A DNA stretch of 64,000 nt from Bolinopsis microptera (taxonomy: Eukaryota; Ctenophora; Tentaculata; Lobata; Bolinopsidae), in contig NC_087075.1 in the NCBI RefSeq assembly GCF_026151205.1, forward strand, positions 11,950,303-12,014,302, given 5' to 3'. Position 1 is the stretch's first letter. Every line of letters starts with the position of its first letter. The notes beneath the pieces were generated by a model. The model searched no databases. It saw only the letters and a list, made by a program, of their open reading frames with translations, and was not told the origin of the DNA. The position numbers and the translations under genes are program-made. Positions 38,501 through 62,512 of the stretch are shown here, in pieces.

Positions 38501-41500
38501 TCTTCTGCAATTTCATTAAATTAACTTGATATTGGGTAAATTTCCAAGGAAATGGTCGAGATATCTCAAGTCACGAGTCAGTACAGTTATTTGATGAGTC
38601 AACGATATGATAACATACATTTTGCAGGCAAAGATTGCGCACATAACCACATTTTTAGAGCAGTACAGGATCTACTCCCACAATGTTCTGGAAGTTATAG
38701 TGAAGGCCGCATTCTCAGAGGTACTCATGATATTCTTCATGTTTTACAAAAAAAATGCAGTGTACCATTTTAATTTCAACCACCAAGGTTATTTTGTGTT
38801 CCTCAAGGTCGTAACATAGGTCCAGTTTTAAAATATGCATTCTGCTACTGGAGGAATTAATTTAATTTAGTTCGAGGAGTTCTCAATCTCCTCGCGTCCT
38901 AAGATGGCGTTTCTCTTGTCGCATATACCAGGAGGTATAGTGTATACCAGGAGGTATGGGGATAATTGTAACAAGAAATTCTTACTCTTTAGCGCTAGGT
39001 TGAACCACTGTTGATGAAATTCTGGGGTAGCTTCTCAGACGAGGTGCTCTCTTCACTTAACCTCTTCTCTGATGTTGTTGCTTACTGCGATATTTTACTT
39101 TCAAAGGTACGTTATGTTACTTACTATCCGATTAATTTCAGAATTATCTTATCAATAAAAAGATTTCATAGCTTACTGCTTAGTACTATTGTCTATTACT
39201 AATAAATTAAAATTTCACGAATTAACTAATTTATTAACTAATTAACGTTATTGAAATTCAGACAATAATCTCACTCCTTCTCCCGACACCCCTTCATCCG
39301 ATACCTTCATCCTTAACACAAACTATAAGGAGCTTTTGTAAACAATATGGCGGCTGGACCAGAATGGCTGTTGCAGGTATCAAAATCTTTTTGTGAAATG
39401 TTTTTAGTTATTAATCAATTGTTAGTTCGTAAGTTAAAATTTCCTAGCTACTAATTAGATGTTACAGATAGTGGATGCACATTTATGGGGTTTTTCCAAT
39501 AATTGTACAACTGCAACTTTTAATAAGACATCATCGTCAAAACTCATTTATCTCTCTTACAGGATTACCAGGAAACATAGTCCAGGCAGTATTGCAAGCC
39601 TCTGATATATTCGTAGCTATGATGAGGAGACAAACCACTCTAACTCACATTGCTCAGGCAACCAGGTAAACTGAAGATCTGCCTACACCAGTAACCATGA
39701 CTACAGTACCAGTAACCATGACTACAGTGCCAGTAACCATGACTACAGTACCAGTAACCATGACTACAGTACCAGTAACCATGACTACAGTACCAGTAAC
39801 CATGACTACAGTACCAGTAACCATGACTACAGTACCAGTAACCATGACTACAGTACCAGTAACCATGACTACAGTACCAGTAACCATGACTGCAGTACCA
39901 GTAACCATGACTGCAGTACCAGTAACCATGACTACAGTACCAGTAACCATGACTACAGTACCAGTAACCATGACTACAGTACCAGTAACCATGACTACAG
40001 TACCAGTAACCATGACTACAGTACCAGTAACCATGACTACAGTACCAGTAACCATGACTACAGTACCAGTAACCATGACTACAGTACCAGTAACCATGAC
40101 TACAGTACCAGTAACCATGACTACAGTACCAGTAACCATGACTACAGTACCAGTAACCATGACTACAGTACCAGTAACCATGACTACAGTACCAGTAACC
40201 ATGACTACAGTACCAGTAACCATGACTACAGTACCAGTAACCATGACTACAGTACCAGTAACCATGACTGCAGTACCAGTAACCATGACTATAAGGTTAC
40301 TTATCTCAAACCACTCTAACTCACATTGCTCAGGCTACCAGGTAAACACCAGTTAAACTGGGTCTGATGAGCATCTTGTAACTTACACTACTAGTAACCA
40401 TAGTTACACAAATAGTTACCATAGTTACACTCCTAGTAACCATAGTTACACTACTAGTACCCACTCTAACTCACATTACTCAGGCTACTAGGTAAACACC
40501 AGTTAAACTGGGTCTGATGAGCATCTTGTAACTTTGTAATAAGTAATGTCCAATGTCCATTGATAATGGACTCTTCCTGTGCACGCTACTTAACGTCCAT
40601 CAAGTGCATAATATGAGGAAGCTTTCATATTTATCCAGTTGTTTAATTAACATTGCTAATGACCCTCATTAGTACTTCAAGAAGGCTCGATATTTATCCA
40701 GTTGTTTAATTAAAATTGCTAATGACACTCATTCAGGACAGTACTGAGTAGCAGCAGTGCCGTGAGTCAAATGATACATGACTGGTGTCACCTTGATATC
40801 GATAGTATGACTCACCAGGTATATAAACATGACTTTTTAATCTTTTTGTTAACATCTAAAACTGAAGATATGCCTACATACCAGATTCTCAGTCAGTGAA
40901 CTGGTCAAGACCAAGTTTAATTATCTCAAAAACACCTCTACTTTTTTCACTTAAAAGACTCATGAACAAAGGATCGGAACCAATATTTACTTTAACACTC
41001 CGCAGGCAATGTTCCTATTCACAAGTCCAGAAGGTGATATGAGTAGTGGGACACTGAAGAGGATCCAGAGTGAGTTCAGTGAGTTGCTAGGGGAACAAGC
41101 AAGCGTGGAGGAGTACGCGGAGTGGATCAAGGAACTAATTGACAAGTTCGTGGTCAAGGTTAGTAGAATTTAGAGATTATATAGTAGATTAAACCTAGAT
41201 CCAATCCAAGATCTACTCACAGTCAGTGATTTAAACTGTTAACTTTGTGGGGTTCAAAAACACACGAGGATAGGAAGGAGAGGTTACTGAAATAAAACTG
41301 GTTTGGTTTACTAACACATTTTCAGAAGAGCGACAGTGAGGAGACGTTTAAAAACCACGCCCAGAAGTTTGTATCACAGTGGTCCTACTTCATCTCCAGG
41401 ATTGTGAGGGATCTCACCTTGCGGAGTGCTCCCAGTTTTGGTACAGTCAAATAAAGTCTACCTTGTGAAGTTAATAATCAATTACAACGAATGACTTTTA

Positions 41501-44500
41501 TATAAAGTGAATTTATTTCTTGAATAATTGAATTTATTTCTTGAACTCCTCTTGTTATAGAGTTATAGCATTTTACGAGATTCAAATGATTCATTATGAT
41601 TTAACGTCAACGGCTGTTACAATACTTTAAACTCCCACTTCAGGTTCATTTCACCTGCTCCACATGCTGTTACAATACTATTAACTCCCACTTCAGGTTC
41701 ATTTCACCTGCTCCACATGCTGTTACAATACTATTAACTCCCACTTCAGGTTCATTTCACCTGCTCCACATGCTGTTACAATACTATTAACTCCCACTTC
41801 AGGTTCATTTCACCTGCTCCACATGCTGTTACAATACTATTAACTCCCACTTCAGGTTAATTTCACCTGCTCCACATGCTGTTACAATGCTTTAAACTCC
41901 CACTTCAGGTTCATTTCACCTGCTCCACATGCTGTTACAATACTTTAAACTCCCACTTCAGGTTCATTTCATCTGCTCCACATGCTGTTCTCCGACTACG
42001 TGCTGCATCTTGTAGAGGAGCATCAACAAAGTGCACTGCAGGCTGAGCTGTGGTTAGTAGCATTGCCATTATATATTTTTTGTTTTTATTTTGTTTAGGG
42101 AACAAACTTGCTACAATGGTAGATGGCCTCCAAAGGTTCAGAAAAGGTAAGCATGTGATGACACCATGAGGTTTAATTTCGTGTTGTAGTCACGTGTAAA
42201 ACCACAAAGTGCTTAGTTTGTATGGGACCCACTCAACTATTAACTAAGATCATCATTAATAGCAGATGGCCTTCGAAGGTTCAGAAAAGGTAAGCATGCG
42301 AGTTTTTAATCTCGTGTTGTAGTCATTAGTCACGTGTAAAAACGACGAAGGGGGTTAACCCCTAATTGCGAGTGATAAGGCTGAAACATTTTATACTGGA
42401 TAGTTCTATAGTTAGATAAGAATTATATTCAATTAAAGCATCGTTTGAGCCCAAGAAGCTGCTCGGTACTAGGCAGAAAGTTGTCTTGGGATCGTTGCAA
42501 TGTGTTCCACGTGTTGTAGGCATTGGTAGCTTGATAGTCATGGGTAGTTATGGCGACACAACCCACTTGCTCTCTGTGTTTACAGATCGTACCTTAACCC
42601 TCCCATGCCCTACCCTTATATTACTAGCACCTGCTCATTTTATAATTTGTAATTAACTACGCAACCCGTACTGTTATATTATTGGTATGTGATAACTTAC
42701 CAGTTGCCATGGAATAAACGGATAGAACGAGGAAAATGAAATGATCATTTGCAGCGTTAATTTGGGCACGAGGTTTTAGTGACCTGTAGTCTAACGAGTC
42801 ATGAGTGCCCCAGTTCTAAACTTATAGTTATGAATATTATAATTAGTTATAATTACAGTGAGAGGAGTTAAGTATGCAGTCTTATGTCTAGAATTTATTA
42901 TCTTACGGTCGCGCCAACATCTTCATCTTATGCTATTAAGTGTATAACATAGACCCGATAAATATTTCTTTCAAGTTTTCTTTGTTCATTTATATCTAAA
43001 AGCTATCTACAAATTTATATCAGTGCTTTCAATTAATTTGATGCACTAATTTATACAGATTATCCGTAATACTAGGTTTAATTATCAGAATAACGTAAAT
43101 TTAACAACTGCTATTCTTTATTTGATAACACCTAATTATTTTGTAGATAGACAAGAAAATGTTCCGATTATTGATACCACTAATCTCATTCACCTTGTTT
43201 TGTCTTATCAGCCCTGGTATGCCTTCCCCTCCTGACAAACCTTCTCCTGACGAACCTTCTCCTGACGAACCTTCTCCTGACAAACCTTCTCCTGACGAAC
43301 CTTCTCCTGACGAACCTTCTCCTGACAAACCTTCTCCTGACGAACCTTCTCCTGACGAACTTCTCCTGACGAACCTTCTCCCTGACGAACCTTCTCCTGA
43401 CGAACCTTCTCCTGACGAACCTTCTCCTGACGAACCTTCTCCTGACGAACCTTCTCCTGACGAACCTTCTCCTGACGAACCTTCTCCTGACGAACCTTCT
43501 CCTGGACGAACCTTCTCCTGACGAACCTTCTCCTGACGAACCTTCTCCTGACGAACCTTCTCCTGACAAACCTTCTCCTGACGAACCTTCTCCTGACGAA
43601 CCTTCTCCTGACGAACCTTCTCCTGACGAACCTTCTCCTGACGAACCTTCTCCTGACGAACCTTCTCCTGACGAACCTTCTCCTGACGAACCTCCTTCTA
43701 CAGACGAACCTCCTTCTAGTTCTAGTTACGAAACTCTTTCTACTAGTACTTCTCCTAACAAACTTCCTACAGCTGTCCCACTAACTATTCCTAACATCGT
43801 TAACCTAAATGATTATCCTGGGATAATTCCAGCCCTTGAGGAACAGTCCAAAGGAAAGTGCCAACCAACTCACAAAATCTTTATCAAATCTGGAGACTCC
43901 TCTCATCTACTCAATGTTATTAATACTAGTCGTAATGCAAATATAACGGAAGGTGTGTGTCAATTCCCGGTTAGCGCCATGGATCTTGTGCTCAGAGAAG
44001 ACATTTCTTCTTCGTGGATAATAGCAATTTCTGAAGTACCCTGGTTCTGCAAACTCGATAACAACAACCGATACTGCGACGCAATTTCTGATTGCCTCAC
44101 AGACGAATGTGGCTGTACCAGTAAAGAAGTTTTCTTTTGTCCAAAACGCACTGGATGTGTTACCTTTCCACAGTTGTGTGATGGTAAGAATGATTGTCTT
44201 GATGGCGCAGATGAGTGTTTATGCGAGGGTTTTGTGGAAGTAGAATGTCCTATCCTAAACTCCTCAAGTATTTGCTTGTCACAAAGAGAATACTGTGAAA
44301 AAAGAACTCCATTTCAGAGTTAAACTATTCATGCACCTTTCATAATATTGAAAATGTTGACTGCTCTGCAGTTTCGGATAATGAAAACCGTCTCATCAAC
44401 CCTATCAACCGATGCCTCAACGATAATATCATACACCTCTTCGAAGTCGATAATAATGAAGATATTTCCAGCTACTGTAAAACAAACTGCTCTGAGACTC

Positions 44501-47422
44501 CTGACTTTGATGATGAAAAATGGGCTAAGTTTTGCGACAGAATCGTGTTAAAAAGTATGGGTAAGTTCAAGCAGATTGATTTCACTTGTACGCCCAAATA
44601 CTATGATGAAACCTGCCAATTATCTAAACTATGTGACGGAGAATTAGATTGTTCTAACGGTGCGGATGAGGCAGAATGTCCAGGTCGTTTCTATTGCTCC
44701 CTCAATACCTCTGAGAGTACAGAGTGGGTGACTCCTGATAAAACTTGTGATAATATCAAACATTGCTCCAACGGGCGTGACGAATGTGATCCCTGTAACT
44801 CAGATGGGTTATCCAATCTCCTCCTCAGTTCTTACTTTCTGCTTGCTTTCACAGCTATTGCAGGAGTCTCAGCAATAGCACTGAACTTTAGAGGGGGGAT
44901 CAGATGTTTCAACAGCAACCCTTCCACATCAGCCGGCAAAGTTGACAGATTGTTGTGTCTCCAGGTTCTTTTCTTTGATGGTAGTATGGGTCTGTATAAC
45001 TGTGGTATTGTGGTGGCAGCCCTGGTTCTTCGTGTGAATGGCAACTACTGTCTTCAAGATGAAAGTTGGAGATCAAGTATCTTCTGCCAGGCACTTGGAC
45101 TGACATTCTCAATAGCTTCACATGGATCCCTCAGTGCAATAGCCCTTATGAGTGTAGTCAGGTGTATTAATTGTGTCAGAGTACATCATCAAACCAAACT
45201 TAAAACAATATTTATAACATCTGCCATACTTATTGCCATAAATGTGATCAACGCATTGATTCCCATCCTTCCTTTGGTTGCCATACAAAACATCTTCCGT
45301 ACAGACGTGTTCTTTAAAAACTTTCTAGATAATCCCTTCATCAGCTCTAGCTATGTAAACATGACCAGGTTAGACCAAATACATGAAACATATTACTCTA
45401 ACAAAACTGATCTGTACACAACAGTCAGGGACCTCAACATCATCACCAGTAAAGACAACATATTCGATATCATAGAGATCGGATATTATGGAAACACCCG
45501 TCTGTGTGTCCACAACGTCTTTAAAGAACAGGAATCCTACTTCATCTATAAACTCTCCTACCTTATTATAGTATCGCTACTTCTGGTCATAGTTACTCTC
45601 ACTTACCTCATCATAGTTAGAAAGCAGTTAGTTTCTCGACGTGAAGTGGGAGACATTGGGGGTGGGATGAACAGACAGAACGCTGCAGCCCCCTCATTAG
45701 CTCTGAAGGTTTCTCTGATGATAGGAACACAGCTAGCAAGTTGGTCGTCTTTTATCGGGGCTGCTGTGTACTTCCAAATAGTTAGTGATAGTCCTCCTCC
45801 TCTACTGTTTGAAGTGCTAGCTCTGGTTGTTCTACCCATTAACAGCATTCTGAACCCCATTTTCTACAGTGAACTGTACAAGAATATAAATACTCGTTTT
45901 TGGAGAAGCTGGAGAGGATTCACTTCAAGAATGCACTAGTGCATTCAATCTTTATCCAACAAGACCCCAAACCTCCCGACAAACATATCATGCACAACAG
46001 TAAAGTGTACATTAAAGACCATGCATCGAGACAGTAGGAAATTCACTTTTTAAACAGGGAAATCAAGTAGGCCCGTTTTTAAATGAACAAGAAAATAACA
46101 CTCAATCTAAAAATAATACTGAACTTATCATCCTTACTAAACGTTTTATCTTTCTACCAATGACACCTTGATAAGTTCCTTATCGTTTATCTCGTGTTTG
46201 CCACACGTTGCATGATATATCATAACAATTTAGTAGCTGTATAGTTTTATCAGTTCGTATAAGTTATAAAATATAAATTTGCAGTTGTTAATTTTCGAGT
46301 GCAGATAGTTCGCATCAAATAAATATATTTTCAGAGTATGAATACGTTGTAATCAGTAACTTAATATCTACTTACCTTTATCATAACATCGTTATCACTG
46401 CGTCAAATAAAAAACAACCAGAAATGTGTTTTAAGAATAATCAAACTCAATATTACAATAAATATAAGGCTAAATAGCTAAATTTAATAACATTTATAAA
46501 TAACCGGTTTCCAAAAACCTTCAACCTGGACAAAATCTTCAAATTCACTTCTGTAAATTGTACATTTCAGGGCCTCGTTAACCGGAGAAAAGTGCCAGCC
46601 CACATTCCCCTCCGTAGCAGCTGAACACCAAACATCAACTAACCAACACATCCCAACAAGTCACAGTAAGGGGACGTCATCACCACAAAACTTGGCTCCA
46701 TCCCAGCAAAACATGATGTCATCACAACAAAACATGGCGCCATTATGTCAAAGTAATGGAACCTTAATACAACCCAGAATCAATAATATCGACAAAACTT
46801 CCCTTTCTCCTGGGCACGAAACAGAAATCTCCGTAGTTGACGATTATGTTGAAGTGACGTCACAACCCCTGGAGATTGTGACGTCATCAAATGACGTCAT
46901 GATGACTTCACCGGAGGATATGATAATGTCTCATATAATGGGGAACCCACTCGATGAAACAGAAGACATCAATATGGTAAACCTCGATTGTTTAACTAAA
47001 CTTTGCTTTTTTCAACAAAGATTTGCCAAGATACCTGCTACATTCATTGCCCGGATATCAGTAATCAAAAGACTTTCTTTTAAAGTTTTAAGATTAAAGA
47101 ATCTATTATTACAACCACATTCCAAACCAGTTACCAGATCCAGGAAGTCAATAATAATTTAATAAATAGCAGCCTGCATAATATCTAATGCAACCACTGT
47201 CTTCAGGAGGGGAACGCCAGTATGCTCTCCTCGTCCCACAACAGCATTTTCTCCCTCTCTAACGGTCTCACTATCGGTAGAACAGCTAACAGGAACATCA
47301 TGCTGCAGAACACTTCCTCTGATATCCTGACTACTCAAGATATCATCCTAAACGAGGGAGACACCCTCTCTGAGAACTTGATGGAGGAAATATTGAAGTG
47401 CGTGTCCAATAGCAATATTTGA
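35567..47422 (+). CDS. RFX4/6: RFX-family winged-helix transcription factor (RFX4/6 type), 18 exons, about 729 aa
   Basis: Exons: 35567-35645, 36005-36118, 36292-36379, 36927-37050, 37290-37351, 37540-37651, 38304-38384, 38628-38720, 38999-39106, 39262-39376, 39563-39665, 40737-40818, 41006-41158, 41326-41440, 41962-42052, 42099-42146, 46571-46976, 47207-47422. All junctions are GT-AG and all phases agree (2190 nt). The DNA-binding domain (about residues 90-168) has NAASFGK and the recognition wing [15 protein letters not shown]. The conserved B/C and dimerisation region (about 230-500) includes [27 protein letters not shown] and [30 protein letters not shown] and SAPSFGSFHL point to RFX4/6 rather than RFX1-3. 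The C-terminal tail (523-729) is polar and disordered. The product is nuclear and binds X-boxes; family roles include ciliary, neural and endocrine gene control. Exon 2 has a CAGCAG tandem acceptor. A receptor gene copy lies in intron 16. Confidence 0.9.
36292..37651 (+). other. RFX exons 3-6: DNA-binding domain
   Basis: Exon 3 ends in TG and exon 4 begins G TTA, so the first Trp of the domain (…TQRW|LSENY) is split by the intron. Exon 4 ends at NAASFGK. Exon 5 carries the basic wing ([13 protein letters not shown]). Exon 6 starts with [11 protein letters not shown] frame reading from an ATG at 37499 through exon 6 is not the true start: bases 37499-37539 are intron. Confidence 0.9.
36711..36862. 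repeat. 12-bp minisatellite in RFX intron 3
   Basis: About 13 copies of a 12-bp unit of the type (ttaagagccggt), with variants aac/agc and cgg/cgt/cgc. It is confined to the intron just upstream of exon 4. Confidence 0.9.
37812..37865. repeat. 11-bp minisatellite in RFX intron 6
   Basis: About five units of ctgactggtta / ctgactggcca head to tail. It has no coding role. Confidence 0.85.
39685..40290. repeat. 21-bp minisatellite in RFX intron 11
   Basis: About 28 copies of a 21-bp unit (accatgactacagtaccagta) with rare t/c or a/g variants (ctgcag). It starts 20 bp after the exon 11 donor. Because 21 is divisible by three, both strands stay open and give false VPVTMTT / VMVTGTV proteins of over 200 residues. 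The phased RFX reading frame jumps over it, so it is intronic. Confidence 0.95.
40306..40535. repeat. Two intronic copies of the RFX exon 11 end and donor
   Basis: The last ~35 bases of exon 11 plus donor (ccactctaactcacattgct…accag|gtaaac, real copy 39630-39672) recur at about 40308-40348 and, with changes, at 40462-40498. The two intronic copies share a further ~40 bp downstream (gttaaactgggtctgatgag…). They are followed by tandem 'agtaaccatagttacac' motifs. These are decoy exon ends and donors. Confidence 0.8.
41609..41961 (+). repeat. 53-bp minisatellite, unit 1, about 7 copies (splice-acceptor repeat)
   Basis: Each unit contains aactcccacttcag|GTTC… followed by TCATTTCACCTGCTCCACATG, then a gttacaatac linker. 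The acceptor and coding part are the same as at the real RFX exon 15 that ends the array at 41962. Each unit is therefore a copy of a 3' splice site plus the first ~26 coding bases (G-S-F-H-L-L-H-M-L). Confidence 0.95.
42263..42289 (+). CDS. Duplicated 27-nt RFX microexon (16b), in frame
   Basis: Exon 16 ends in AGATGGCCTCCAAAGGTTCA…AAAAG|gtaagc. A second copy (with TTCG for TCCA) lies about 140 bp downstream after an acceptor (taatag|C). It has the same donor and would insert nine residues (…RWPSKVQKR) without changing phase. It is a candidate optional exon. Confidence 0.5.
43159..45939 (+). pseudogene. LDL-A / 7TM receptor, copy 1, nested in RFX intron 16, disrupted
   Basis: Same architecture as the intact copy at 54939: signal peptide ([20 protein letters not shown]), low-complexity spacer, Cys-rich ectodomain with three LDL-A modules (first one [14 protein letters not shown]), then seven membrane segments. 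The spacer is a 15-bp minisatellite (PSPDE)n at 43226-43690. It contains a compensated pair of single-base changes near 43360-43390 and an uncompensated extra G near 43504, which ends the signal-peptide frame at 43521. A second frame break near 44310 separates LDL-A1 from the rest. From 44545 to 45939 the second and third LDL-A modules and all seven helices are open ([20 protein letters not shown] intact). It is read as a pseudogene, or as an allele with sequencing errors in homopolymers. Orientation is the same as RFX. Confidence 0.75.
43226..43690 (+). repeat. 15-bp coding-type minisatellite (PSPDE)n
   Basis: About 31 copies of ccttctcctgacgaa, a few with aaa for gaa. It lies at the point where the intact copy 2 has only a short PPPPPDVPP spacer. 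Length instability here is the likely cause of one frame break. Confidence 0.95.
46571..47422 (+). other. RFX exons 17-18: disordered C-terminal tail
   Basis: Exon 17 (406 nt) continues the exon 16 codon AG|G and encodes a Gln/Ser/Thr-rich tail with repeated QNM/QNL ([13 protein letters not shown]). Exon 18 (216 nt) ends [16 protein letters not shown] and stop. Frames starting at 46692 or 47222 are internal parts of these exons. Exon 17 contains three TGACGTCA palindromes (46855, 46879, 46892). Confidence 0.8.
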
Positions 47423-47805
47423 GTTTCTGATTTATGATGAACTAAAAGTTTGGGTGGTGTGTAGATAGCTTTGGGTGATTTGTACAGATTTTTAATTTTC
47501 CATCTGTTTTCAGATTATTTATGAGTTTACAGTTGATCGGTCAACCATTTCAGAAGAATTATCTTAATTTAGTGATCGTGTTTAATACAGAATGATTTTG
47601 TACAGATTTCTATTGAGACTTTGTGAATTTTAATGATGACTCTATCTTGTTTATATAGTAAGCTATTGTAGATTAAACCTAGATCTAATCCAAGGTCTAG
47701 TCACAGTCAGTGATTTAATCTGCAAGCTTTGTGGTTCAAAACAACAAGTAATGAGAGGGTAGTGGTACTGAAATAAAACTGGTTTGGTTAACACATTTTC
47801 AAAAG

Positions 47806-47917
47806 AGGGATAGTGAGGAGACGTTTCAAAACCACGCCCAAAAGTTTGTAACACAGTGGTCCTATTTCATCTCCAGGATTGTGAGAGATCTCACCTTGCG
47901 GAGTGCTCCCAGTTTTG
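47806..47917 (+). pseudogene. Duplicated RFX exon 14
   Basis: Encodes RDSEETFQNHAQKF then [13 protein letters not shown], with two substitutions from the parent. The acceptor has changed from ttcag to tcaaaag, moving the usable AG by a few bases. It belongs to the partial RFX copy whose downstream exons are broken. Confidence 0.75.
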
Positions 47918-48098
47918 GTATGGTCGAATAAAGTCTACCTTGTGAATTTAATAATCAGTATTATATCAGTATATCCCGCAATACAACGAATGAGTTTTAT
48001 ATAAAGTGAATTTATTTCTGGAATAAATTGAATTTATTTCTTGAACTCCTCTTGTTATAGAAGTATAGCATTCTACAATTCATTATGATTAAACGTCA

Positions 48099-51000
48099 AC
48101 GGCTGTTAAAATGCTTTAAACTCCCACTTCAGGTTCATTTCACCTGCTCCACATGCTGTTACAATACTATTAACTCCCACTTCAGGTTCATTTCACCTGC
48201 TCCACATGCTGTTACAATACTATTAACTCCCACTTCAGGTTCATTTCACCTGCTCCACATGCTGTTACAATACTTTAAACTCCCACTTCAGGTTCATTTC
48301 ACCTGCTCCACATGCTGTTACAATACTATTAACTCCCACTTCAGGTTCATTTCACCTGCTCCACATACTGTTACAATACTTTAAACTCCCACTTCAGGTT
48401 CATTTCACCTGCTCCACATGCTGTTACAATACTATTAACTCCCACTTCAGGTTCATTTCACCTGCTCCACATGCTGTTACAATACTTTAAACTCCCACTT
48501 CAGGTTCATTTCACCTGCTCCACATACTGTTACAATACTATTAACTCCCACTTCAGGTTCATTTCACCTGCTCCACATACTGTTACAATACTTTAAACTC
48601 CCACTTCAGGTTCATTTCACCTGCTCCACATGCTGTTACAATACTATTAACTCCCACTTCAGGTTCATTTCACCTGCTCCACATGCTGTTACAATACTTT
48701 AAACTCCCACTTCAGGTTCATTTCACCTGCTCCACATGCTGTTTCAATACTATTAACTCCACTTCAGGTTCATTTCACCTGCTCCACATGCTGTTACAAT
48801 ACTTTTAACTCCCACTTCAGGTTCATTTCACCTGCTCCACATGCTGTTACAATACTTTAAACTCCCACTTCAGGTTCATTCACCTGCTCACATGCTGTTA
48901 CAATACTATTAACTCCCACTTCAGGTTCATTTCACCTGCTCCACATGCTGTTACAATACTATTAACTCCCACTTCAGGTTCATTTCACCTGCTCCACATG
49001 CTGTTACAATACTTTAAACTCCCACTTCAGGTTCATTTCACCTGCTCCACATACTGTTACAATACTTTAAACTCCCACTTCAGGTTCATTTCACCTGCTC
49101 CACATGCTGTTACAATACTTTAAACTCCCACTTCAGGTTCATTTCACCTGCTCCACATGCTGTTACAATACTATTAACTCCCACTTCAGGTTCATTTCAC
49201 CTGCTCCACATACTGTTACAATACTTTAAACTCCCACTTCAGGTTCATTTCACCTGCTCCACATACTGTTACAATACTATTAACTCCCACTTCAGGTTCA
49301 TTTCACCTGCTCCACATACTGTTACAATACTTTAAACTCCCACTTCAGGTTCATTTCACCTGCTCCACATACTGTTACAATACTATTAACTCCCACTTCA
49401 GGTTCATTTCACCTGCTCCACATACTGTTACAATACTATTAACTCCCACTTCAGGTTCATTTCACCTGCTCCACATACTGTTACAATACTTTAAACTCCC
49501 ACTTCAGGTTCATTTCACCTGCTCCACATACTGTTACAATACTATTAACTCCCACTTCAGGTTCATTTCACCTGCTCCACATACTGTTACAATACTTTAA
49601 ACTCCCACTTCAGGTTCATTTCACCTGCTCCACATACTGTTACAATACTATTAACTCCCACTTCAGGTTCATTTCACCTGCTCCACATACTGTTACAATA
49701 CTATTAACTCCCACTTCAGGTTCATTTCACCTGCTCCACATGCTGTTACAATACTATTAACTCCCACTTCAGGTTCATTTCACCTGCTCCACATACTGTT
49801 ACAATACTATAAACTCCCACTTCAGGTTCATTTCACCTGCTCCACATACTGTTACAATACTATTAACTCCCACTTCAGGTTCATTTCACCTGCTCCACAT
49901 ACTGTTACAATACTTTAAACTCCCACTTCAGGTTCATTTCACCTGCTCCACATACTGTTACAATACTTTAAACTCCCACTTCAGGTTCATTTCACCTGCT
50001 CCACATACTGTTACAATACTTTAAACTCCCACTTCAGGTTCATTTCACCTGCTCCACATACTGTTACAATACTATTAACTCCCACTTCAGGTTCATTTCA
50101 CCTGCTCCACATACTGTTACAATACTTTAAACTCCCACTTCAGGTTCATTTCACCTGCTCCACATACTGTTACAATACTTTAAACTCCCACTTCAGGTTC
50201 ATTTCACCTGCTCCACATACTGTTACAATACTATTAACTCCCACTTCAGGTTCATTTCACCTGCTCCACATGCTGTTACAATACTTTAAACTCCCACTTC
50301 AGGTTCATTTCACCTGCTCCACATACTGTTACAATACTATTAACTCCCACTTCAGGTTCATTTCACCTGCTCCACATACTGTTACAATACTTTAAACTCC
50401 CACTTCAGGTTCATTTCACCTGCTCCACATACTGTTACAATACTTTAAACTCCCACTTCAGGTTCATTTCACCTGCTCCACATGCTGTTACAATACTATT
50501 AACTCCCACTTCAGGTTCATTTCACCTGCTCCACATGCTGTTACAATACTTTAAACTCCCACTTCAGGTTCATTTCACCTGCTCCACATACTGTTACAAT
50601 ACTATAAACTCCCACTTCAGGTTCATTTCACCTGCTCCACATACTGTTACAATACTTTAAACTCCCACTTCAGGTTCATTTCACCTGCTCCACATGCTGT
50701 TACAATACTATTAACTCCCACTTCAGGTTCATTTCACCTGCTCCACATACTGTTACAATACTTTAAACTCCCACTTCAGGTTCATTTCACCTGCTCCACA
50801 TACTGTTACAATACTATTAACTCCCACTTCAGGTTCATTTCACCTGCTCCACATACTGTTACAATACTTTAAACTCCCACTTCAGGTTCATTTCACCTGC
50901 TCCACATGCTGTTACAATACTTTAAACTCCCACTTCAGGTTCATTTCACCTGCTCCACATACTGTTACAATACTATTAACTCCCACTTCAGGTTCATTTC

Positions 51001-53240
51001 ACCTGCTCCACATACTGTTACAATACTATTAACTCCCACTTCAGGTTCATTTCACCTGCTCCACATACTGTTACAATACTTTAAACTCCCACTTCAGGTT
51101 CATTTCACCTGCTCCACATACTGTTACAATACTATTAACTCCCACTTCAGGTTCATTTCACCTGCTCCACATACTGTTACAATACTTTAAACTCCCACTT
51201 CAGGTTCATTTCACCTGCTCCACATACTGTTACAATACTATTAACTCCCACTTCAGGTTCATTTCACCTGCTCCACATGCTGTTACAATACTATTAACTC
51301 CCACTTCAGGTTCATTTCACCTGCTCCACATACTGTTACAATACTTTAAACTCCCACTTCAGGTTCATTTCACCTGCTCCACATACTGTTACAATACTAT
51401 TAACTCCCACTTCAGGTTCATTTCACCTGCTCCACATGCTGTTACAATACTATTAACTCCCACTTCAGGTTCATTTCACCTGCTCCACATGCTGTTACAA
51501 TACTTTAAACTCCCACTTCAGGTTCATTTCACCTGCTCCACATACTGTTACAATACTATTAACTCCCACTTCAGGTTCATTTCACCTGCTCCACATACTG
51601 TTACAATACTATAAACTCCCACTTCAGGTTCATTTCACCTGCTCCACATGCTGTTACAATACTTTAAACTCCCACTTCAGGTTCATTTCACCTGCTCCAC
51701 ATACTGTTACAATACTTTAAACTCCCACTTCAGGTTCATTTCACCTGCTCCACATACTGTTACAATACTTTAAACTCCCACTTCAGGTTCATTTCACCTG
51801 CTCCACATACTGTTACAATACTTTAAACTCCCACTTCAGGTTCATTTCACCTGCTCCACATACTGTTACAATACTTTAAACTCCCACTTCAGGTTCATTT
51901 CACCTGCTCCACATACTGTTACAATACTTTAAACTCCCACTTCAGGTTCATTTCACCTGCTCCACATACTGTTACAATACTTTAAACTCCCACTTCAGGT
52001 TCATTTCACCTGCTCCACATACTGTTACAATACTATTAACTCCCACTTCAGGTTCATTTCACCTGCTCCACATACTGTTACAATACTATTAACTCCCACT
52101 TCAGGTTCATTTCACCTGCTCCACATACTGTTACAATACTTTAAACTCCCACTTCAGGTTCATTTCACCTGCTCCACATACTGTTACAATACTATTAACT
52201 CCCACTTCAGGTTCATTTCACCTGCTCCACATGCTGTTACAATACTATTAACTCCCACTTCAGGTTCATTTCACCTGCTCCACATGCTGTTACAATACTA
52301 TTAACTCCCACTTCAGGTTCATTTCACCTGCTCCACATGCTGTTACAATACTATTAACTCCCACTTCAGGTTCATTTCACCTGCTCCACATGCTGTTACA
52401 ATACTATTAACTCCCACTTCAGGTTCATTTCACCTGCTCCACATACTGTTACAATACTTTAAACTCCCACTTCAGGTTCATTTCACCTGCTCCACATGCT
52501 GTTACAATACTATTAACTCCCACTTCAGGTTCATTTCACCTGCTCCACATGCTGTTACAATACTATTAACTCCCACTTCAGGTTCATTTCACCTGCTCCA
52601 CATGCTGTTACAATACTATTAACTCCCACTTCAGGTTCATTTCACCTGCTCCACATGCTGTTACAATACTATTAACTCCCACTTCAGGTTCATTTCACCT
52701 GCTCCACAGGCTGTTACAATACTATTAACTCCCACTTCAGGTTCATTTCACCTGCTCCACAGGCTGTTACATGACTATTAACTCCCACTTCAGGTTCATT
52801 TCACCTGCTCCACATGCTGTTGCAATACTTTAAAATACCACTCCAGGTTCATTTCACCTGCTACACATGCTGTTACATGACTATTAACTCCCACTTCAGG
52901 TTCATTTCACCTGCTCCACATGCTGTTATAATACTTTTAAATACCACTCCAGGTTCATTTCACCTGCTCCACATGCTGTTACAATACTTTAAACTACCAC
53001 TTCAGGTTCATTTCACCTGCTCCACATGCTGTTACAATACTTTAAACTCCCACTTCAGGTTCATTTCACCTGCTCCACATACTGTTACAATACTATTAAC
53101 TCCCACTTCAGGTTCATTTCACCTGCTCCACATGCTGTTACAATACTTTAAAATACCACTTCAGGTTCATTTCACTTGCTACACATGCTGGTATAATACT
53201 ATTAACCTCCACTTCAAGTTCATTTCACCTGCTCCACACG
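48099..53240 (+). repeat. 53-bp minisatellite, unit 2, about 97 copies (splice-acceptor repeat)
   Basis: The same 53-bp unit as in unit 1, expanded to over 5 kb. Almost every unit keeps the acceptor cccacttcag| and the exon start GTTCATTTCACCTGCTCCACA. Units differ mainly at two places: catgctg versus catactg, and ctattaac versus ctttaaac (rarely ctataaac). More diverged units cluster at the 3' end (from about 52760), next to the degenerate exon 15 copy. Because 53 is not a multiple of three, long false frames run through it. None is a gene. Confidence 0.97.
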
Positions 53241-53565
53241 CTGTTCTCCGACTACGTGCTGCATCTTGGAGCATCAACAGAGTGCACTGCAGGCTGAGCT
53301 GTGGTTAGTAGCATTGCCATTATATATTTTTTGTTTTTATTTTGTTTAGGGAACAAACTTGCTACAATGGTAGATGGCCTCTGAAGGTTTAGAAAATGTA
53401 AGTATGTGATGACACCACGAGGTTTAATCTCGTGTTGTAGTCACGTGTGCAAACGACAAAGTGCTTAGTTGTTATGGGACCCACTCAACTATTAAAGTAT
53501 TAACTAAGATCATTATCAATAGCAGATGGCCTCCGAAGGTTTAGAAAAGGTAAGCATGCGAGTTT
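53229..53565 (+). pseudogene. Duplicated RFX exons 15, 16 and 16b, decayed
   Basis: The exon 15 copy (53229-53300) follows a changed acceptor (cttcaag|ttc) and lacks five bases in the HLVEEH region, shifting frame. The exon 16 copy (53349-53397) and the microexon copy (53526-53552) both have GTTTAG where the parent has GTTCAG, a stop in the RFX frame. Unit 2 therefore cannot encode this part of RFX. Confidence 0.75.
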
Positions 53566-54353
53566 TTAATCTCATGTTGTAGTCATTAGTCACGTGTAGA
53601 AATGACAAAGGGGGTTAACCCCTAATTGCGAGTGATAAGGCTCAAACATTTTATACTGGATAGTTCTATAGTTAAATAATAATTATATTCAATTAAAGCA
53701 TTGTTTGAGCCCAAGAAGCTGCTCGGTACTAGGTAGAAAGTTGTCTTGGGATCGTTGCAATGTGTTCCACGTGTTGTAGGCATTGGTAGCTTGATAGTCA
53801 TGGGTAGTTATGGCGACACAACCCACTTGCTCTCTGTGTTTACAGATCGTACCTTAACCCTCCCATGCCCTACCCTTATATTACTAGCACCTGCTCATTT
53901 TATCATTTGTAATTAACTACGCGACCTGTACTGTTATATTATTGGTATGTGATAACTTATCAGTTGTCATGGAATAAACGGATAGAACGAGGAAAATAAA
54001 ATGATCATTTGCAGCGTTAATTTGAGCACGAGCTTTTGGTGACCTGTAGTCTAACGAGTCATGAGTGCCCCAGTTCTAAACTTATAGTTATGAATATTAT
54101 AATTAGTTATAATTACAGCGAGAGGAGTTAAGTATGCGGCCTAATGTCAAGAATTTATTATTTCACGGTCGTGCCGAGATCTGCATCTTCTGCTATCAAA
54201 ATATTAAGTGTATATCGTGGACCCGAATAATTTTCCTTCGAATTTTTCTTTGTTCATTTATATTTGAAAGCTATTTATCAGTGCGTTCATTAAATTTAAG
54301 TTGCAATGATTATATTTATTTTCAAGTTGTCCTTGTTTATCTATCGAGCGTGA

Positions 54354-54733
54354 TAAATTACTCTACACTCGATCGATCTTCGAGAATTTTCTAAAAGTTG
54401 AAACCAACTCGAATCGATGTATTTTCGGACACTGATTCCGAATCACCCCCATGACATAGGGTTTAAATGCTCTGCTCCCCTGGCAAAACATTGGCGAAAA
54501 ACTGTCGCGGTCACATGATATTACCTTATAAGCTTATAAGGAAGTTGGTCTAATTTCTCGTTAGGGTTAGGGTTTCAGCATAAGCTTTTTTTGGGATTGG
54601 ATTAGGGTTACCCTAACCCGGTTAGGGTTGGGATCAGATTAGAGGGAGAGGGTTTTCGAATAGTCGTTATGCAGGGCCAGCTAGAGAAAGGGTTGGAAAA
54701 GTCACGTGACAGTCGAGTGTAGAGTGATTAATC
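54354..54733. mobile_element. Small inverted-repeat insert with telomere-like motifs
   Basis: ACTCTACACTCGA at about 54360 and TCGAGTGTAGAGT at about 54713 are inverted. The 350 bp between them are absent from the matching place in unit 1. Inside are several TTAGGG/CCCTAA motifs (54564-54640). It is probably a small non-autonomous element. The target duplication is unclear, because flanking sequence on both sides is itself partly duplicated. Confidence 0.5.
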
Positions 54734-54938
54734 ATCATCCTTTATTTATATGATATATTATCTAAAAGTCTAAATGCTATTTATACTTGTATATCAATGT
54801 ACTCATTAAATTTTAATATGCACTTCATAAGGATTATCTGTAATAACAGCTGTAATTATCAGATCAATAGCTTAAAGTCAACAACTATTCTTTATTTGAT
54901 AACAGTAACACCAACATATTCAGTATACAGATAAAAAA

Positions 54939-57233
54939 ATGTTCCGAATATTGATATCTTTGATCGCGTTCACTTCATTTTGTCTCACCAACCCTGGCAT
55001 GCCTCCACCTCCTCCTGACGTACCTCCTTTTATAGACGAGCTTCATTCAGCTGACCTAGTAACTATTCCTAACATCGTCAACTTATTTAAAATACTAAGG
55101 GTGCATACGAAACAAACAACCTGCCAAAATGCTCAAACAGGTTTATTCATGCCTTATATCGATTATGGAAACTCATCTCATCCATATCCACTAATCAATA
55201 TTAGTCATAAAGCAAATAAAACGAAAGGTGTTTGTCAATTTCCGGTTAACGCTATGGATCTTGTGCTCAGAGAACAAATGGCTCATTCATGGGTAGTACC
55301 AATCTCTGAAGTACCCTGGTTCTGCGATATCAATAACAACTATAGTAAGTACTGTGACATGTTTTCTGAGTGCTTGACAGATGAATGTGGCTGTACTAAC
55401 AGCAGCATGGATGTCTTCTTCTGTCCAAAACGCACTGGATGTATTACCTTTCCACAGTTGTGTGATGGTAAGAATGATTGTCTTGATGGCGCTGATGAGT
55501 GTTTATGTGAGGGTTTTGTGGAAGTAGAATGTCCTATCCTAAACTCCTCAAGTATTTGCTTGTCACTACAAGAATACTGTGAAATAAAAGATCTGCATTT
55601 CTCCATTTTAAACTATTCATGCACCTTTCATAATATTGAAAATATTGACTGCTCTGCAGTTTCGGATAATGAAAACCGTCTCATCAACCCTATCAACCAA
55701 TGCCTGAACAATACTATCAGACAACTCATTCGCCTTAACAATGGAGATATTTCCAGCTACTGTAAAACAAACTGCTCTGAGACTCTTGACTTTGATGATG
55801 GCAAATGGGATAAGTTTTGCGACAGAATCGTGATATCATATGGGGGTTTGGTCGATCTGGCTTATTTCAGTTGTACACCAGAATTATATCATGAAATCTA
55901 CCCCTTATTTAAACTGTGTGACGGAAAAGTAGATTGTTCTAACGGTGCGGATGAGGCAGAATGTCCAGGACGTTTCTATTGCTCCCTGAATACCTCTGAG
56001 AGTACAAAGTGGGTGACTCCTGATAAAACTTGTGATAATATTAAACACTGCTCTAACGGACGTGACGAATGTGATCCCTGTAACTTAGATAATACATCCA
56101 ATCTCCTCCTCAGTTCTAACTTTCTACTTATTTTCACAGCTATTGCAGGAGTCTCAATGATCATACTGAACTTGAGAGGGGGGATCAGATGCTTCAACAG
56201 CACTTCCTCCACATCAGCCGGCAAAGTTGACAGATTCTTGTGTCTCCAGGTTCTTTTCTTTGATGGTAGTATGGGTCTGTATAACTGTGGTATTGTGGTG
56301 GCAACTCTGGTTCTTCGTGCAAATGGCAACTACTGTCTTCAAGATGAAAGTTGGAGATCAAGTATCGTCTGCCAGGCACTTGGACTGACATTTTCAATAG
56401 CTTCACATGGGTCCCTCAGTGCAATAGCCCTTATGAGTATTGTCAGGTGTATTAATTGTGTCAGAGTACATCATCAAACCAAACTTAAAACAGTATTCAT
56501 AACATATGCTTTACTTATTGCCATAAATGTGATCAACGCATTGATTCCCATCCTTCCTTTGGTTGCCATGCAAAATATCTTCCGTACAGACGTGTTCTTT
56601 ACAAACTTTATAGATAATCCCTTCATCAGCTCTATCTATGTAAACATGACCTGGTTAGACCACATACATATAAGATATTACTCTAACAAAACTGATCTGT
56701 ACACAACTATCAGGGACCTCAACACCATCACCAGTAAAGACAACATATTTGATATCATAGAGATCGGATATTATGGAAACACCCGTCTCTGTGTTCACAA
56801 CGTCTTTAAAGAACAAGAATCTTACTTCATCTACAAACTCTCCTATCTTATCATAGTGTCCCTACTTCTGGTCATAGTTACTCTCACTTACCTCATCATA
56901 GTTAGAAAGCAGTTAGAGTCTCGACGTGAAGTGGGAGACATTGGAGGTGGGATGAACAGACAGAACGCTGCAGCCCCCTCATTAGCTCTGAAGGTTTCTC
57001 TGATGATAGGAACACAGCTAGCAAGTTGGTTGTCATTTATCGGGGCTGCTGTGTACTTTCAGATAGTTAGTGATAGTCCTCCTCCCATATTGTTTGAAGT
57101 GTTAGCTCTGGTGGTTCTACCCATTAACAGCATTTTGAATCCCATTTTCTACAGTGAACTGTACAAGAATATATACTATTGTTTTTGGAGAAGCTGGAGA
57201 GAATTCGTTTCAAGAATGCATCAGTGTGTTTGA
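54939..57233 (+). CDS. LDL-A-module 7TM receptor, LGR/relaxin-receptor-like, copy 2, intact (764 aa)
   Basis: Single uninterrupted exon. Signal peptide (residues 1-20), short proline spacer, then an ectodomain with many Cys and N-glycosylation sites. LDL-A modules lie at about 162-190 ([14 protein letters not shown]), 309-343 ([16 protein letters not shown]) and 346-381 (more divergent, CSNGRDEC). Seven helices run from about 388 to 738: TM2 has [10 protein letters not shown], matching the LGR-type AD..MG.YL pattern; TM3 ends IVRCINCVR in place of (D/E)R(Y/W); TM7 has LNPIFY (NPxxY). Extracellular loop 2 is long (about 544-632). This fits a class A receptor related to relaxin/LGR-C and snail GRL101 receptors, but without leucine-rich repeats. 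It should sit in the plasma membrane. The ligand is unknown. It lies between decayed RFX exons 16 and 17 of unit 2, on the same strand. This is the only intact LDL-A receptor of the three. Confidence 0.88.
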   Translation: MFRILISLIAFTSFCLTNPGMPPPPPDVPPFIDELHSADLVTIPNIVNLFKILRVHTKQTTCQNAQTGLFMPYIDYGNSSHPYPLINISHKANKTKGVCQFPVNAMDLVLREQMAHSWVVPISEVPWFCDINNNYSKYCDMFSECLTDECGCTNSSMDVFFCPKRTGCITFPQLCDGKNDCLDGADECLCEGFVEVECPILNSSSICLSLQEYCEIKDLHFSILNYSCTFHNIENIDCSAVSDNENRLINPINQCLNNTIRQLIRLNNGDISSYCKTNCSETLDFDDGKWDKFCDRIVISYGGLVDLAYFSCTPELYHEIYPLFKLCDGKVDCSNGADEAECPGRFYCSLNTSESTKWVTPDKTCDNIKHCSNGRDECDPCNLDNTSNLLLSSNFLLIFTAIAGVSMIILNLRGGIRCFNSTSSTSAGKVDRFLCLQVLFFDGSMGLYNCGIVVATLVLRANGNYCLQDESWRSSIVCQALGLTFSIASHGSLSAIALMSIVRCINCVRVHHQTKLKTVFITYALLIAINVINALIPILPLVAMQNIFRTDVFFTNFIDNPFISSIYVNMTWLDHIHIRYYSNKTDLYTTIRDLNTITSKDNIFDIIEIGYYGNTRLCVHNVFKEQESYFIYKLSYLIIVSLLLVIVTLTYLIIVRKQLESRREVGDIGGGMNRQNAAAPSLALKVSLMIGTQLASWLSFIGAAVYFQIVSDSPPPILFEVLALVVLPINSILNPIFYSELYKNIYYCFWRSWREFVSRMHQCV

Positions 57234-58102
57234 TCTTTATCAAACAAGACCCTAAACCTCCCGACAAAAATAATATGCATAAGAGTAAAGTGTACATTGT
57301 AGATCATGTGTCAAGTCAGCATGACATTCACCCAAAGTTAACAAGAAACCAACACTCAATTTAAAAACAATGTTCAACTTATCAGTGGCACCATTCCCTC
57401 CGTGCGCATTCGTTTCACTTCTATCTCCCAAAGAGAGAAGTGAGCCATACACAAGCTAGCTGGGTAATGTTTGCTTATCTAGCAATAGAAATGATCGTGT
57501 TATCTTAATCTTTGATCACTCGATCAATGAGTGACATGACACCTTGATAAGTTCCATATCTTTTATCCGTGTTTGCGACACGTTGCATGATATTACATAG
57601 TTATTTAATATTTAGTATTAGTAGCTGAATAGTTTTTAATGCGCTGCCTATCAGTTCGAATAAATTCGCAAAGTTCTATTAATTTGGTACAACTATTCTA
57701 CCTCTTTAAATTTTATCACTATTTCTTCGGAGCTGCTAAGATTTGTTTTAAGATATAATGATAATATATGTTATTTTTAGATTAATTTTTAAAAATTTAA
57801 AAAAATAAATAAATAAATAAAGATTAAAAAAAGATCTGAATCGTTTCAGAGCATGAATATTACGTTGCATGTATTAACTTAATATCTACCTACTTATTTT
57901 TTTTCATAACATCGTTATATGCACTTAGTCAAATAAAAAATAATCAGAAATTTGTTTTAAGAATCATCAAACGCGAGACTTAATAACATAATTAGGCTTA
58001 ATCAGATAGTTAAATTTAATAACATTTCTAAAATAACTGATTTTCAAATACCACCAACCAGGCAAAATCTTCGAATTCACTTCTGTAAATTGTACATTTA
58101 AG

Positions 58103-58819
58103 GGCCTCATTAACCGGAGAAAAGTGCCAGCCCACATTCCCCTACGTAGCAGCTGAACACCCAACATCAACTAAGCAACACATCCCAACAAGTCACAGTA
58201 TGGCGCCATCACTACGAAAGGGGACGTCATCACATCAAAACCTGGCGCCATTATGTCAGAGTAATGGAACCTTAATACAACCCAGAATCAATAATATCGA
58301 CAAAACTTCCCTTTATCCTGGGCACGAAACAAAAATCTCCGTAGTTGACGATTATGTTGAAGTGACGTCACAACCCCTGGAGATTGTGACGTCATCAAAT
58401 GACGTCATGATGACTTCAACGGAGGATATGAAAATCCACTCGATGAAACAGAAGACATCAATATGGTAAAGTCAAATATTGATTATCAAAAAGATTTATT
58501 TTTTCATAGGTTGAAAGACAGCCACATTCCAAACCAGATCTAGGAAGTCAATAATAATTAAATAAACAGTAGCCCTCAGATCTAATTCAACAACTGTCTT
58601 CAGGAGGGGAACGCCAGTATGCTCTCCTCGTCCCACAACAGCATTTTCTCCCTCTCTAACGGTCTCACTATCGGCAGAACAGCTAACAGGAACATCATGC
58701 TGCAGAACACTTCCTCTGATATCCTGACTACTCAAGATATCATCCTAAACGAGGGAGACACCCTCTCTGAGAACTTGATGGAAGAAATATTGAAGTGCGT
58801 GTCCAAAAGGGATCTTTGA
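58103..58819 (+). pseudogene. Duplicated RFX exons 17-18, frame-shifted
   Basis: The exon 17 copy opens after aag|G GCC and follows the parent closely. A net 19-base loss near 58430 (…EDMKI versus …[15 protein letters not shown]) shifts the frame, so splicing to the well-kept exon 18 copy (58604-58819) would run out of frame and stop early. Exon 18 itself would still encode an almost unchanged ending (…EILKCVSKRDL). Its conservation suggests that the duplication is young. Confidence 0.7.
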
Positions 58820-59028
58820 GTTTCTGATTTGTGATGAACTAAAAGTTTGGCTGGTGTGTAGATAGCTTTGGGTACTGATTTGTACAGATTTTTAATTTTC
58901 CATATTATGTTTTCAGATTATTTATGAATTTACAGTTGATCGGTCAACTATTTCAGAAGACATATCTTAATTTCGTGATCGTGTTTAATACAGAATGATT
59001 TTGTATATATTTCTATTGAAGTATAAGA

Positions 59029-59898
59029 CTACCTTATCGGACCTTATTTGGACGGACATTACTTGAACGCTGGAGGCCCTAGCGTTCATCTTAATGTCCG
59101 TTCAAATAAAGTCCGTTCAATTAATGTCCGTCCAAGTTAAAGTCCGTTGAAATTTTTTTCAAAAATTTTTCCATTTCGAACTTTTTGTCCAGAATATGAC
59201 AACTTTGAGAACTTTATTGTGCCGTAAGTTAACGACGGAAAGGTTCTCCTTGGTCTGCCGGAGGCACAGAAAACTCTACTACTAGAGTATACTACTGCTA
59301 CTAGTATATGATGTTTTCAAGGGTCACTTGGCGGAAAAAAGTCAACGAAATTATGGCACTCAACAACATATTACGGTAAATCGTGTTGCCAAGGACATTG
59401 TCCGACGTTGTTATAGTTCATATTACTCGGGGGCGGTAATGAAACAGTGCTAGGAAAGCTCCACGTGATGTTAAGGTTAACCTAAAGTTGTCTAAGATAA
59501 AAACCACTTCACGCCGAATGGCTTGTAAAAGTTAACACTGAAATGCAGGACCGGGGAAGTTTGATGAAAAAAAGGTTTCCATAAAGCTAGAAATCACTGA
59601 TGCTTTAAGCATGGACTATTTCATGCACGAAAACCCATTTGATGAAGATGATATGTGATATTAGACACTGATCATGTACACATATTTTAACATTTTTACT
59701 GCTTAATGACTGCTTTTCTTACTTACTGTATAAAAAATGGATTTAAAAATCATTTGCTGAAATTTAAAAAACGTCAAAAAATATTGAAAAAAATTCGGAT
59801 TTTTGATGGTTTTGAATGCCTTCGAGCGTTCATATTAATGTCCGTTCATAATTGTGTCCGTTCATGTAATGTCCGTCCAAATAAGGTCCGATAAGGTA
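59029..59898. mobile_element. TA-flanked non-autonomous DNA transposon with 40-bp inverted ends
   Basis: The left end TACCTTATCGGACCTTATTT… and right end …AAATAAGGTCCGATAAGGTA match as inverted repeats over about 40 bp with one mismatch. Both ends carry strings of 'aatgtccgttca' / 'aaagtccgtt' subterminal repeats. Unit 1 lacks the element at the same place (near 47618), so this is an insertion after, or segregating with, the duplication. The target looks like TA. There is no intact transposase. Confidence 0.85.
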
Positions 59899-62333: not shown

Positions 62334-62512
62334 TTCTACGTTTTCCTAAATTGTGCTCCCATGGAGCCAACGTTCAATTTACGAGACGAACATTTTGGAA
62401 AAAACTGGAAGTCTCTATTTCTTTTACTTTCGGAGGTAAACCCTAGCCGGCAATGTTTCCTGGAAATGACGTCACCCGGTCACCTGCCAAGAGGATCACA
62501 AAGTTCATTTTT

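Follow-up and report, generated by a model that had tools for sequence, protein, structure and literature searches.

A 53-bp splice-junction minisatellite with 7 units in an open RFX gene and 97 in its disabled partial duplicate in Bolinopsis microptera

Introduction

Minisatellites that straddle an intron-exon boundary are known from amphioxus as mirages, of which Canestro et al. in 2002 reportedly gave the original account. Mirages are described in Adh3 and the globin genes BflGb6 and BflGb9 as minisatellite-like tandem repeats that evolve in concert within a cluster, its boundaries excluded, the Adh3 mirage being cited together with somatic instability (PMC3087553); troponin C and PGBD5 have been added to the cases (PMC3902484). 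Here we describe two arrays of this kind in a window of 64,000 nucleotides from the ctenophore Bolinopsis microptera (NCBI RefSeq assembly GCF_026151205.1, contig NC_087075.1, positions 11,950,303 to 12,014,302 of the forward strand; all coordinates below are positions in this window): array A, with 7 units, in an open RFX gene (gene A), and array B, with 97 units, in a broken partial duplicate of it. The original prediction, made from the sequence of this window, knew of no minisatellite born from a conserved splice junction and amplified to this extent; the view that no repeat of such an origin is described is overturned by the amphioxus mirages.

The repeat at this locus is of a known kind and a striking case of it; its copy number and the contrast between an open and a broken gene are what is unusual. 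Like the amphioxus mirages, the repeat runs in tandem across an intron-exon boundary. Two BflGb6 haplotypes carry 6 and 3 units of 150-160 bp and the Adh3 units measure 10-72 bp, whereas the 53-bp units here number 7 and 97; the amphioxus lengths belong to different haplotypes, whereas arrays A and B are paralogues in one haplotype; and the long array lies here in a broken partial duplicate. Splicing was examined in amphioxus, whereas here it is predicted from sequence. A literature search in open-licence papers, which covered excerpts, found no array as long as 97 units, and we claim no record.

Three further systems resemble the locus in part. In the potato RdRp gene a new intron arose from a tandem duplication across an intron-exon boundary, a single event that, as excerpted, left no array (PMC4974935). 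The same source cites 24-bp AGGT tandem duplications in fission yeast, together with a vertebrate gene case; there too short AGGT-bearing tandem units turn intronic, but the units are exonic and the introns span four and two duplicates. The human interferon-induced gene IFI6 (6-16) contains a minisatellite that multiplies a splice site, its repeat units serving as multiple donors (Turri et al. 1995, as cited in PMC4526556); there the donor side is multiplied, here the acceptor side. Junction minisatellites pose the question of how the spliceosome chooses among several near-identical 3' splice sites, and, if the AG|GT property discussed below matters, they would link minisatellite turnover to intron gain. 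Here two arrays that share an origin stand side by side, one of 7 copies in an open gene and one of 97 in a broken fragment, so that selection against decoy acceptors becomes directly testable.

Each unit copies one RFX splice junction

Tandem Repeats Finder revealed array A at 41613-41989 (forward strand; period 53, 7.1 copies, 97% matches) and array B at 48103-53245 (forward strand; period 53, 97.1 copies, 96% matches). Parsing array B unit by unit likewise gave 97 units, as the original prediction had estimated: 95 are 53 bp long, one is 52 bp and one is 51 bp. Each unit consists of the last 25 intron bases and the first 28 exon bases of a single RFX exon, which the original prediction numbered exon 15 and which is the 12th counted from the first DNA-binding exon found; the exon half encodes the segment G-SFHLLHM that opens this exon, following PSFG. 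The proposed derivation of the unit from an RFX splice acceptor and exon start is borne out by the open frame of the gene, its Pfam matches and the unit parse, and the presence of splice-junction arrays is confirmed.

Gene A (36927-47422, forward strand) was followed over 15 exons, starting with the first DNA-binding exon found and ending at the stop codon. Human RFX4 and RFX3 baits served to locate the exons, whose borders were then placed by eye (36927-37050, 37290-37351, 37540-37651, 38304-38384, 38628-38720, 38999-39106, 39262-39376, 39563-39665, 40737-40818, 41006-41158, 41326-41440, 41962-42052, 42099-42146, 46571-46976 and 47207-47422), so that the model is a sequence-based prediction whose search covered the first DNA-binding exon onward. 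Joined, they give 635 codons open to a stop; every intron begins with GT and ends with AG, and the shortest is 46 nt. The predicted protein matches the Pfam families BCD_RFX (E 3.5e-78) and RFX_DNA_binding (E 5.3e-31), and the better of its two matches among solved structures is the DNA-binding domain of human RFX1 (PDB 1dp7, E 9.4e-23).

The open 15-exon frame fixes the boundary that the units span. Only the acceptor of unit 7, after position 41961, yields the full-length frame; with any of the other six, a stop follows 1 to 35 codons beyond exon 14. About seven copies had been predicted to precede the real exon; seven units there are, but they comprise six decoy junctions and the authentic one, with the real exon (41962-42052) adjoining the intron half of unit 7. 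The authentic junction thus persists as the last unit of array A, and at the end of array B the acceptor of the last unit is altered from CAG to CAA, with the AG displaced by one base. Both arrays start and end with GCTGTT, so that each locus holds whole units followed by a 6-base partial copy.

The 95 full-length units of array B fall into 14 sequence types, and four of these types account for 81 of the units. A wide repeat search of the window returned at least 60 families, of which the best 20 were all the 53-bp array in different registers. A 31-base piece of the unit has no exact match in two contig collections, which is little telling since these contain prokaryotes and viruses. Open stretches of up to 193 aa occur within the array, which was considered as a coding repeat, a reading not adopted. 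We found no sign of higher-order repeats of several units in array B, where runs of coded units recur up to a length of 6, which 94 of 300 shuffles also reach; units carrying TATTAA and TTTAAA alternate weakly (64 switches against 54.8 +/- 4.6 in shuffled arrays, 2.7% of shuffles being as high). The units at 48738 and 48843 (48738-48893) contain three single-base deletions in short homopolymer runs, possibly consensus errors.

The long array lies in a disabled duplicate

Self-comparison of the window by blastn, followed by alignment, divides this region into two blocks on the forward strand. Block A (41195-47663, ends approximate) contains the 3' exons of RFX together with a receptor-like gene nested in the gene A intron between 42146 and 46571, and block B (47664-59022, end approximate) is its duplicate, enlarged by array B. 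The two align over the array flanks, exons 14-18 and the receptor gene. As the copy in block B starts in the intron before exon 14, it is without the earlier exons, including the DNA-binding ones; block B accordingly holds only RFX 3' exons and a second receptor gene. Array B had been placed before the exon of a second RFX unit, which proves to be this partial 3' duplicate and not a whole gene.

In block B, the RFX sequence is disabled by several changes. The acceptors of exons 14' and 15' have both changed from CAG to CAA, the next AG lying 3 and 1 bases further on, respectively; the second of these changes falls in the last unit of array B, which with the exon-15' remnant (53187-53303, forward strand, by alignment) also shows a 5-nt exon deletion. 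Exon 16' contains a TAG, and the exon-17' remnant (58103-58465, forward strand, by alignment) has a 24-nt in-frame deletion and a 19-nt frameshift deletion relative to exon 17. When each of the 97 acceptor positions of array B was joined with the exons of gene A, exon 14' (its acceptor assumed to work) and the later exons of block B, only four joins stayed open through exon 15'. Three of these are out of the correct frame, the last has some 23 residues scrambled, and each runs into a stop further on. None of the 97 encodes an intact segment of the RFX dimerisation domain. Since array B sits in a broken 3' fragment, the suggestion that it might create variable microexons in the RFX protein finds no support there.

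Across four aligned stretches, the blocks differ at 39 of 806 exon sites and 124 of 1552 non-exon sites (8.0%; Fisher p 0.0046). The ratio of exon to non-exon divergence, about 0.6, would fit one constrained and one free copy.

Origin and growth of the arrays

Minisatellites are usually said to be born by slippage between short direct repeats, an account reportedly set out by Haber and Louis in 1998. One copy of GCTGTT lies in the intron, where the first unit begins, and another in the exon, after the last unit; in a single-copy ancestor the two would be 53 bp apart. Among 172,533 53-bp segments drawn at random from the window, its main repeat tracts excluded, 0.19% show such junction homology of at least 6 bp. 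These data suggest that slippage or a microhomology-mediated duplication between the two GCTGTT copies probably doubled the 3' splice site and exon start of an ancestral RFX gene. The alignment of the blocks shows a tandem duplication of a roughly 6.5-kb block comprising the RFX 3' part and the nested receptor-like gene. As both blocks hold an array, it had probably begun, at least in short form, before this segmental duplication, the alternative being conversion between the block copies. The RFX part of block B, without DNA-binding exons, is disabled, and gene A has kept an open frame. In the disabled copy, the array would then have reached 97 units by unequal exchange or gene conversion, with a homogenised centre and an older 3' edge.

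Variants within array B date most of this growth. The first base of the unit has changed from G to A in 53 of the 95 full units of array B, whereas all 7 units of array A lack the change. The variant fills the centre, where G remains in 10 of 57 inner units as compared to 34 of 40 outer units, and it is clustered along the array (28 switches against 48.2 +/- 4.9 in shuffled arrays, 0 of 5000 being as low). Its absence from array A and its central, clustered position in array B indicate that most growth of the long array followed the segmental duplication. Divergence is 2.5% among inner units, 3.7% among the first ten and 10.5% among the last ten; in array B, where this was computed, homogenised inner units are thus bordered by divergent ones, as in a mirage.

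Together, these results make it likely that the arrays are a mirage without selected function, which arose by slippage, was copied by segmental duplication and then grew in the disabled copy. Of the possibilities raised in the original prediction, titration of splicing factors among them, we favour simple neutrality. Array A may have been kept short because each additional acceptor, if used, gives a premature stop, and array B may have expanded because nothing opposes growth in a disabled copy; in gene A the last acceptor would be expected to be chosen, as it alone precedes a whole exon with a real donor. Relaxed selection is perhaps the cause of the expansion.

Several observations weigh against this reading. 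The contrast of 7 with 97 units offers one array per condition, a single comparison, which leaves relaxed selection a hypothesis. At 3.7%, diversity among the first ten units of array B is little above that of the centre. In array B, columns that derive from the intron are the more variable (12 of 25 variable, mean diversity 0.057) and those from the exon the less so (5 of 28, mean diversity 0.023; an informal comparison), a difference that drift alone would not predict. The lower divergence of exons between the blocks could reflect residual constraint on block B rather than conversion, and the small difference between exon 18' and exon 18 (6 of 216 sites) calls for gene conversion or residual constraint, either of which could apply.

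Nothing suggests that splice sites attract duplication, because junctions are duplicated no more often than random gene positions. A local copy, defined as 27 or more matches of 40 bases (a cut set after the scores were known, with minisatellites counted in), was present at 3 of 29 junctions and at 99 of 500 random gene positions; with a cut of 32 or more the figures were 1 of 29 and 83 of 500 (90 of 600 in another sample of gene positions, and 12 of 600 elsewhere in the window). A DNA hairpin driving slippage was also considered and rejected: three units gave a z of -1.10, and 24 of 200 shuffles fold as well.

Splice signals in the unit and alternative readings

We scored splice sites with donor and acceptor matrices built from the introns of gene A itself (14 sites each). 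Scores of the 103 CAG-bearing unit acceptors run from 7.3 to 10.6 and those of real acceptors outside the array from -0.6 to 10.0, so that the predicted ladder of about a hundred potential acceptors stands, but not in every unit, the terminal unit of array B having lost its CAG. A donor had been proposed after the coding piece of each unit, at CTG|gttaca. Tried as the donor of a microexon, this site, CT|GTTACA, scores -1.7, like a random GT (71% of the GTs in the window score at least as well), and it was rejected. The plausible donor lies at the acceptor itself: CAG|GTTCAT scores 7.8, within the range of real donors (1.9 to 10.6), and 4% of window GTs match or beat it. With this donor, each unit (GTTCAT...CACTTCAG) reads as a possible 53-nt GT...AG intron. 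For branch-point prediction, which the original prediction had called for, a YTNAY motif was sought: it lies 13 nt from the AG in the TATTAAC units and is absent from the TTTAAAC units, which make up 42 of 97 units in array B and 3 of 7 in array A, the real unit 7 included. An AG|GT-bounded unit thus combines donor, acceptor and branch signals, the last in TATTAAC units only.

These properties open a reading, best placed among the alternatives though unlikely, in which the unit would be a minimal intron with AG|GT at both borders, array A would be harmless and the arrays could act as a nursery of introns. If an upstream acceptor were used, recursive or repeated splicing could put this right, since all routes of 53-nt removal converge on one mRNA. 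The donor and unit acceptors do score like real sites, the TATTAAC units hold a branch motif, gene A contains an intron of 46 nt, and introns born by AGGT tandem duplication are described in excerpts of PMC4974935. Against this, the first join to exon 14 regenerates the donor as TTTG|GTTCAT, not CAG|GTTCAT; the matrices rest on 14 sites of each type; and the TTTAAAC units, the real unit 7 among them, are without the YTNAY motif. The fuller proposal, that about 100 potential 53-nt introns are joined by zero-length AG|GT exons, that decoy splicing in the live gene is repaired to the same mRNA, that AG|GT-bordered arrays are tolerated where others are not, and that new introns are nursed there, strikes us as quite improbable.

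Another possibility is that the array is used, the choice of acceptor tuning RFX output through premature stops in gene A, or block B supplying an alternative RFX 3' end. The decoys of gene A score 9.0 to 9.8 against 9.8 for the real acceptor, units 2-5 have the branch motif that the real site is without, all six decoys bring early stops, and exon 18' is little changed. For block B, by contrast, none of the 97 acceptors encodes an intact dimerisation segment, the 4 that stay open through exon 15' then meet a stop, and several disabling changes have accumulated, and we regard a function of this kind as highly doubtful. RNA structure that would hide the decoys was rejected as a candidate (41441-42052, RNA z +0.68; 16 of 20 shuffles fold as well). 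That the 97 copies come from a wrongly inflated or misjoined repeat is very unlikely, for although three homopolymer deletions within about 160 bp look like read errors, 95 of the 97 units are exactly 53 bp, and the non-random order of the variants and the older 3' edge do not resemble one read multiplied by computation.

Other duplications in gene A and the nested receptor-like gene

Gene A is rich in tandem duplications generally. In its intron h-i, a 21-bp minisatellite (39687-40291) runs to about 29 copies, each unit carrying AGTAAC, which would resemble a half-site of the RFX X-box. Two partial copies of the 3' end of exon h and its donor (ACCAG|gtaaac; 39635-39708) lie downstream, at 40311-40384 and 40461-40534, a donor-side junction duplication. 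The 3' end of exon 16 with its donor is duplicated once (42115-42158 and 42258-42301, 143 bp apart), and the same pair is found in block B. The intron end right before the exon i acceptor is likewise duplicated (40618-40670 and 40681-40733, at 63-bp spacing).

Copies of the receptor-like gene lie at 43147-45939 in block A and 54909-57233 in block B, with a third, partial copy at 62470-64000. In block B its frame is open for 774 codons from stop to stop, and in block A it is broken near 44312, reversing the contrast seen in the RFX part, which is open in A and broken in B. The frame in block A matches 7tm_1 only below the curated cut-off (E 0.00032), and the copy in block B matches Ldl_recept_a above and 7tm_1 below the respective cut-offs. 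Near the start of the block A copy, a 15-bp minisatellite of about 31 copies (43229-43693) has a proline-rich reading, and the frame changes inside it. Visual inspection suggests that an element with inverted ends (TACCTTATCGGACC...GGTCCGATAAGGTA; 59023-59896) was inserted near the end of block B, and that the likeness to the end of block A picks up again beyond about 59896, past the inserted element.

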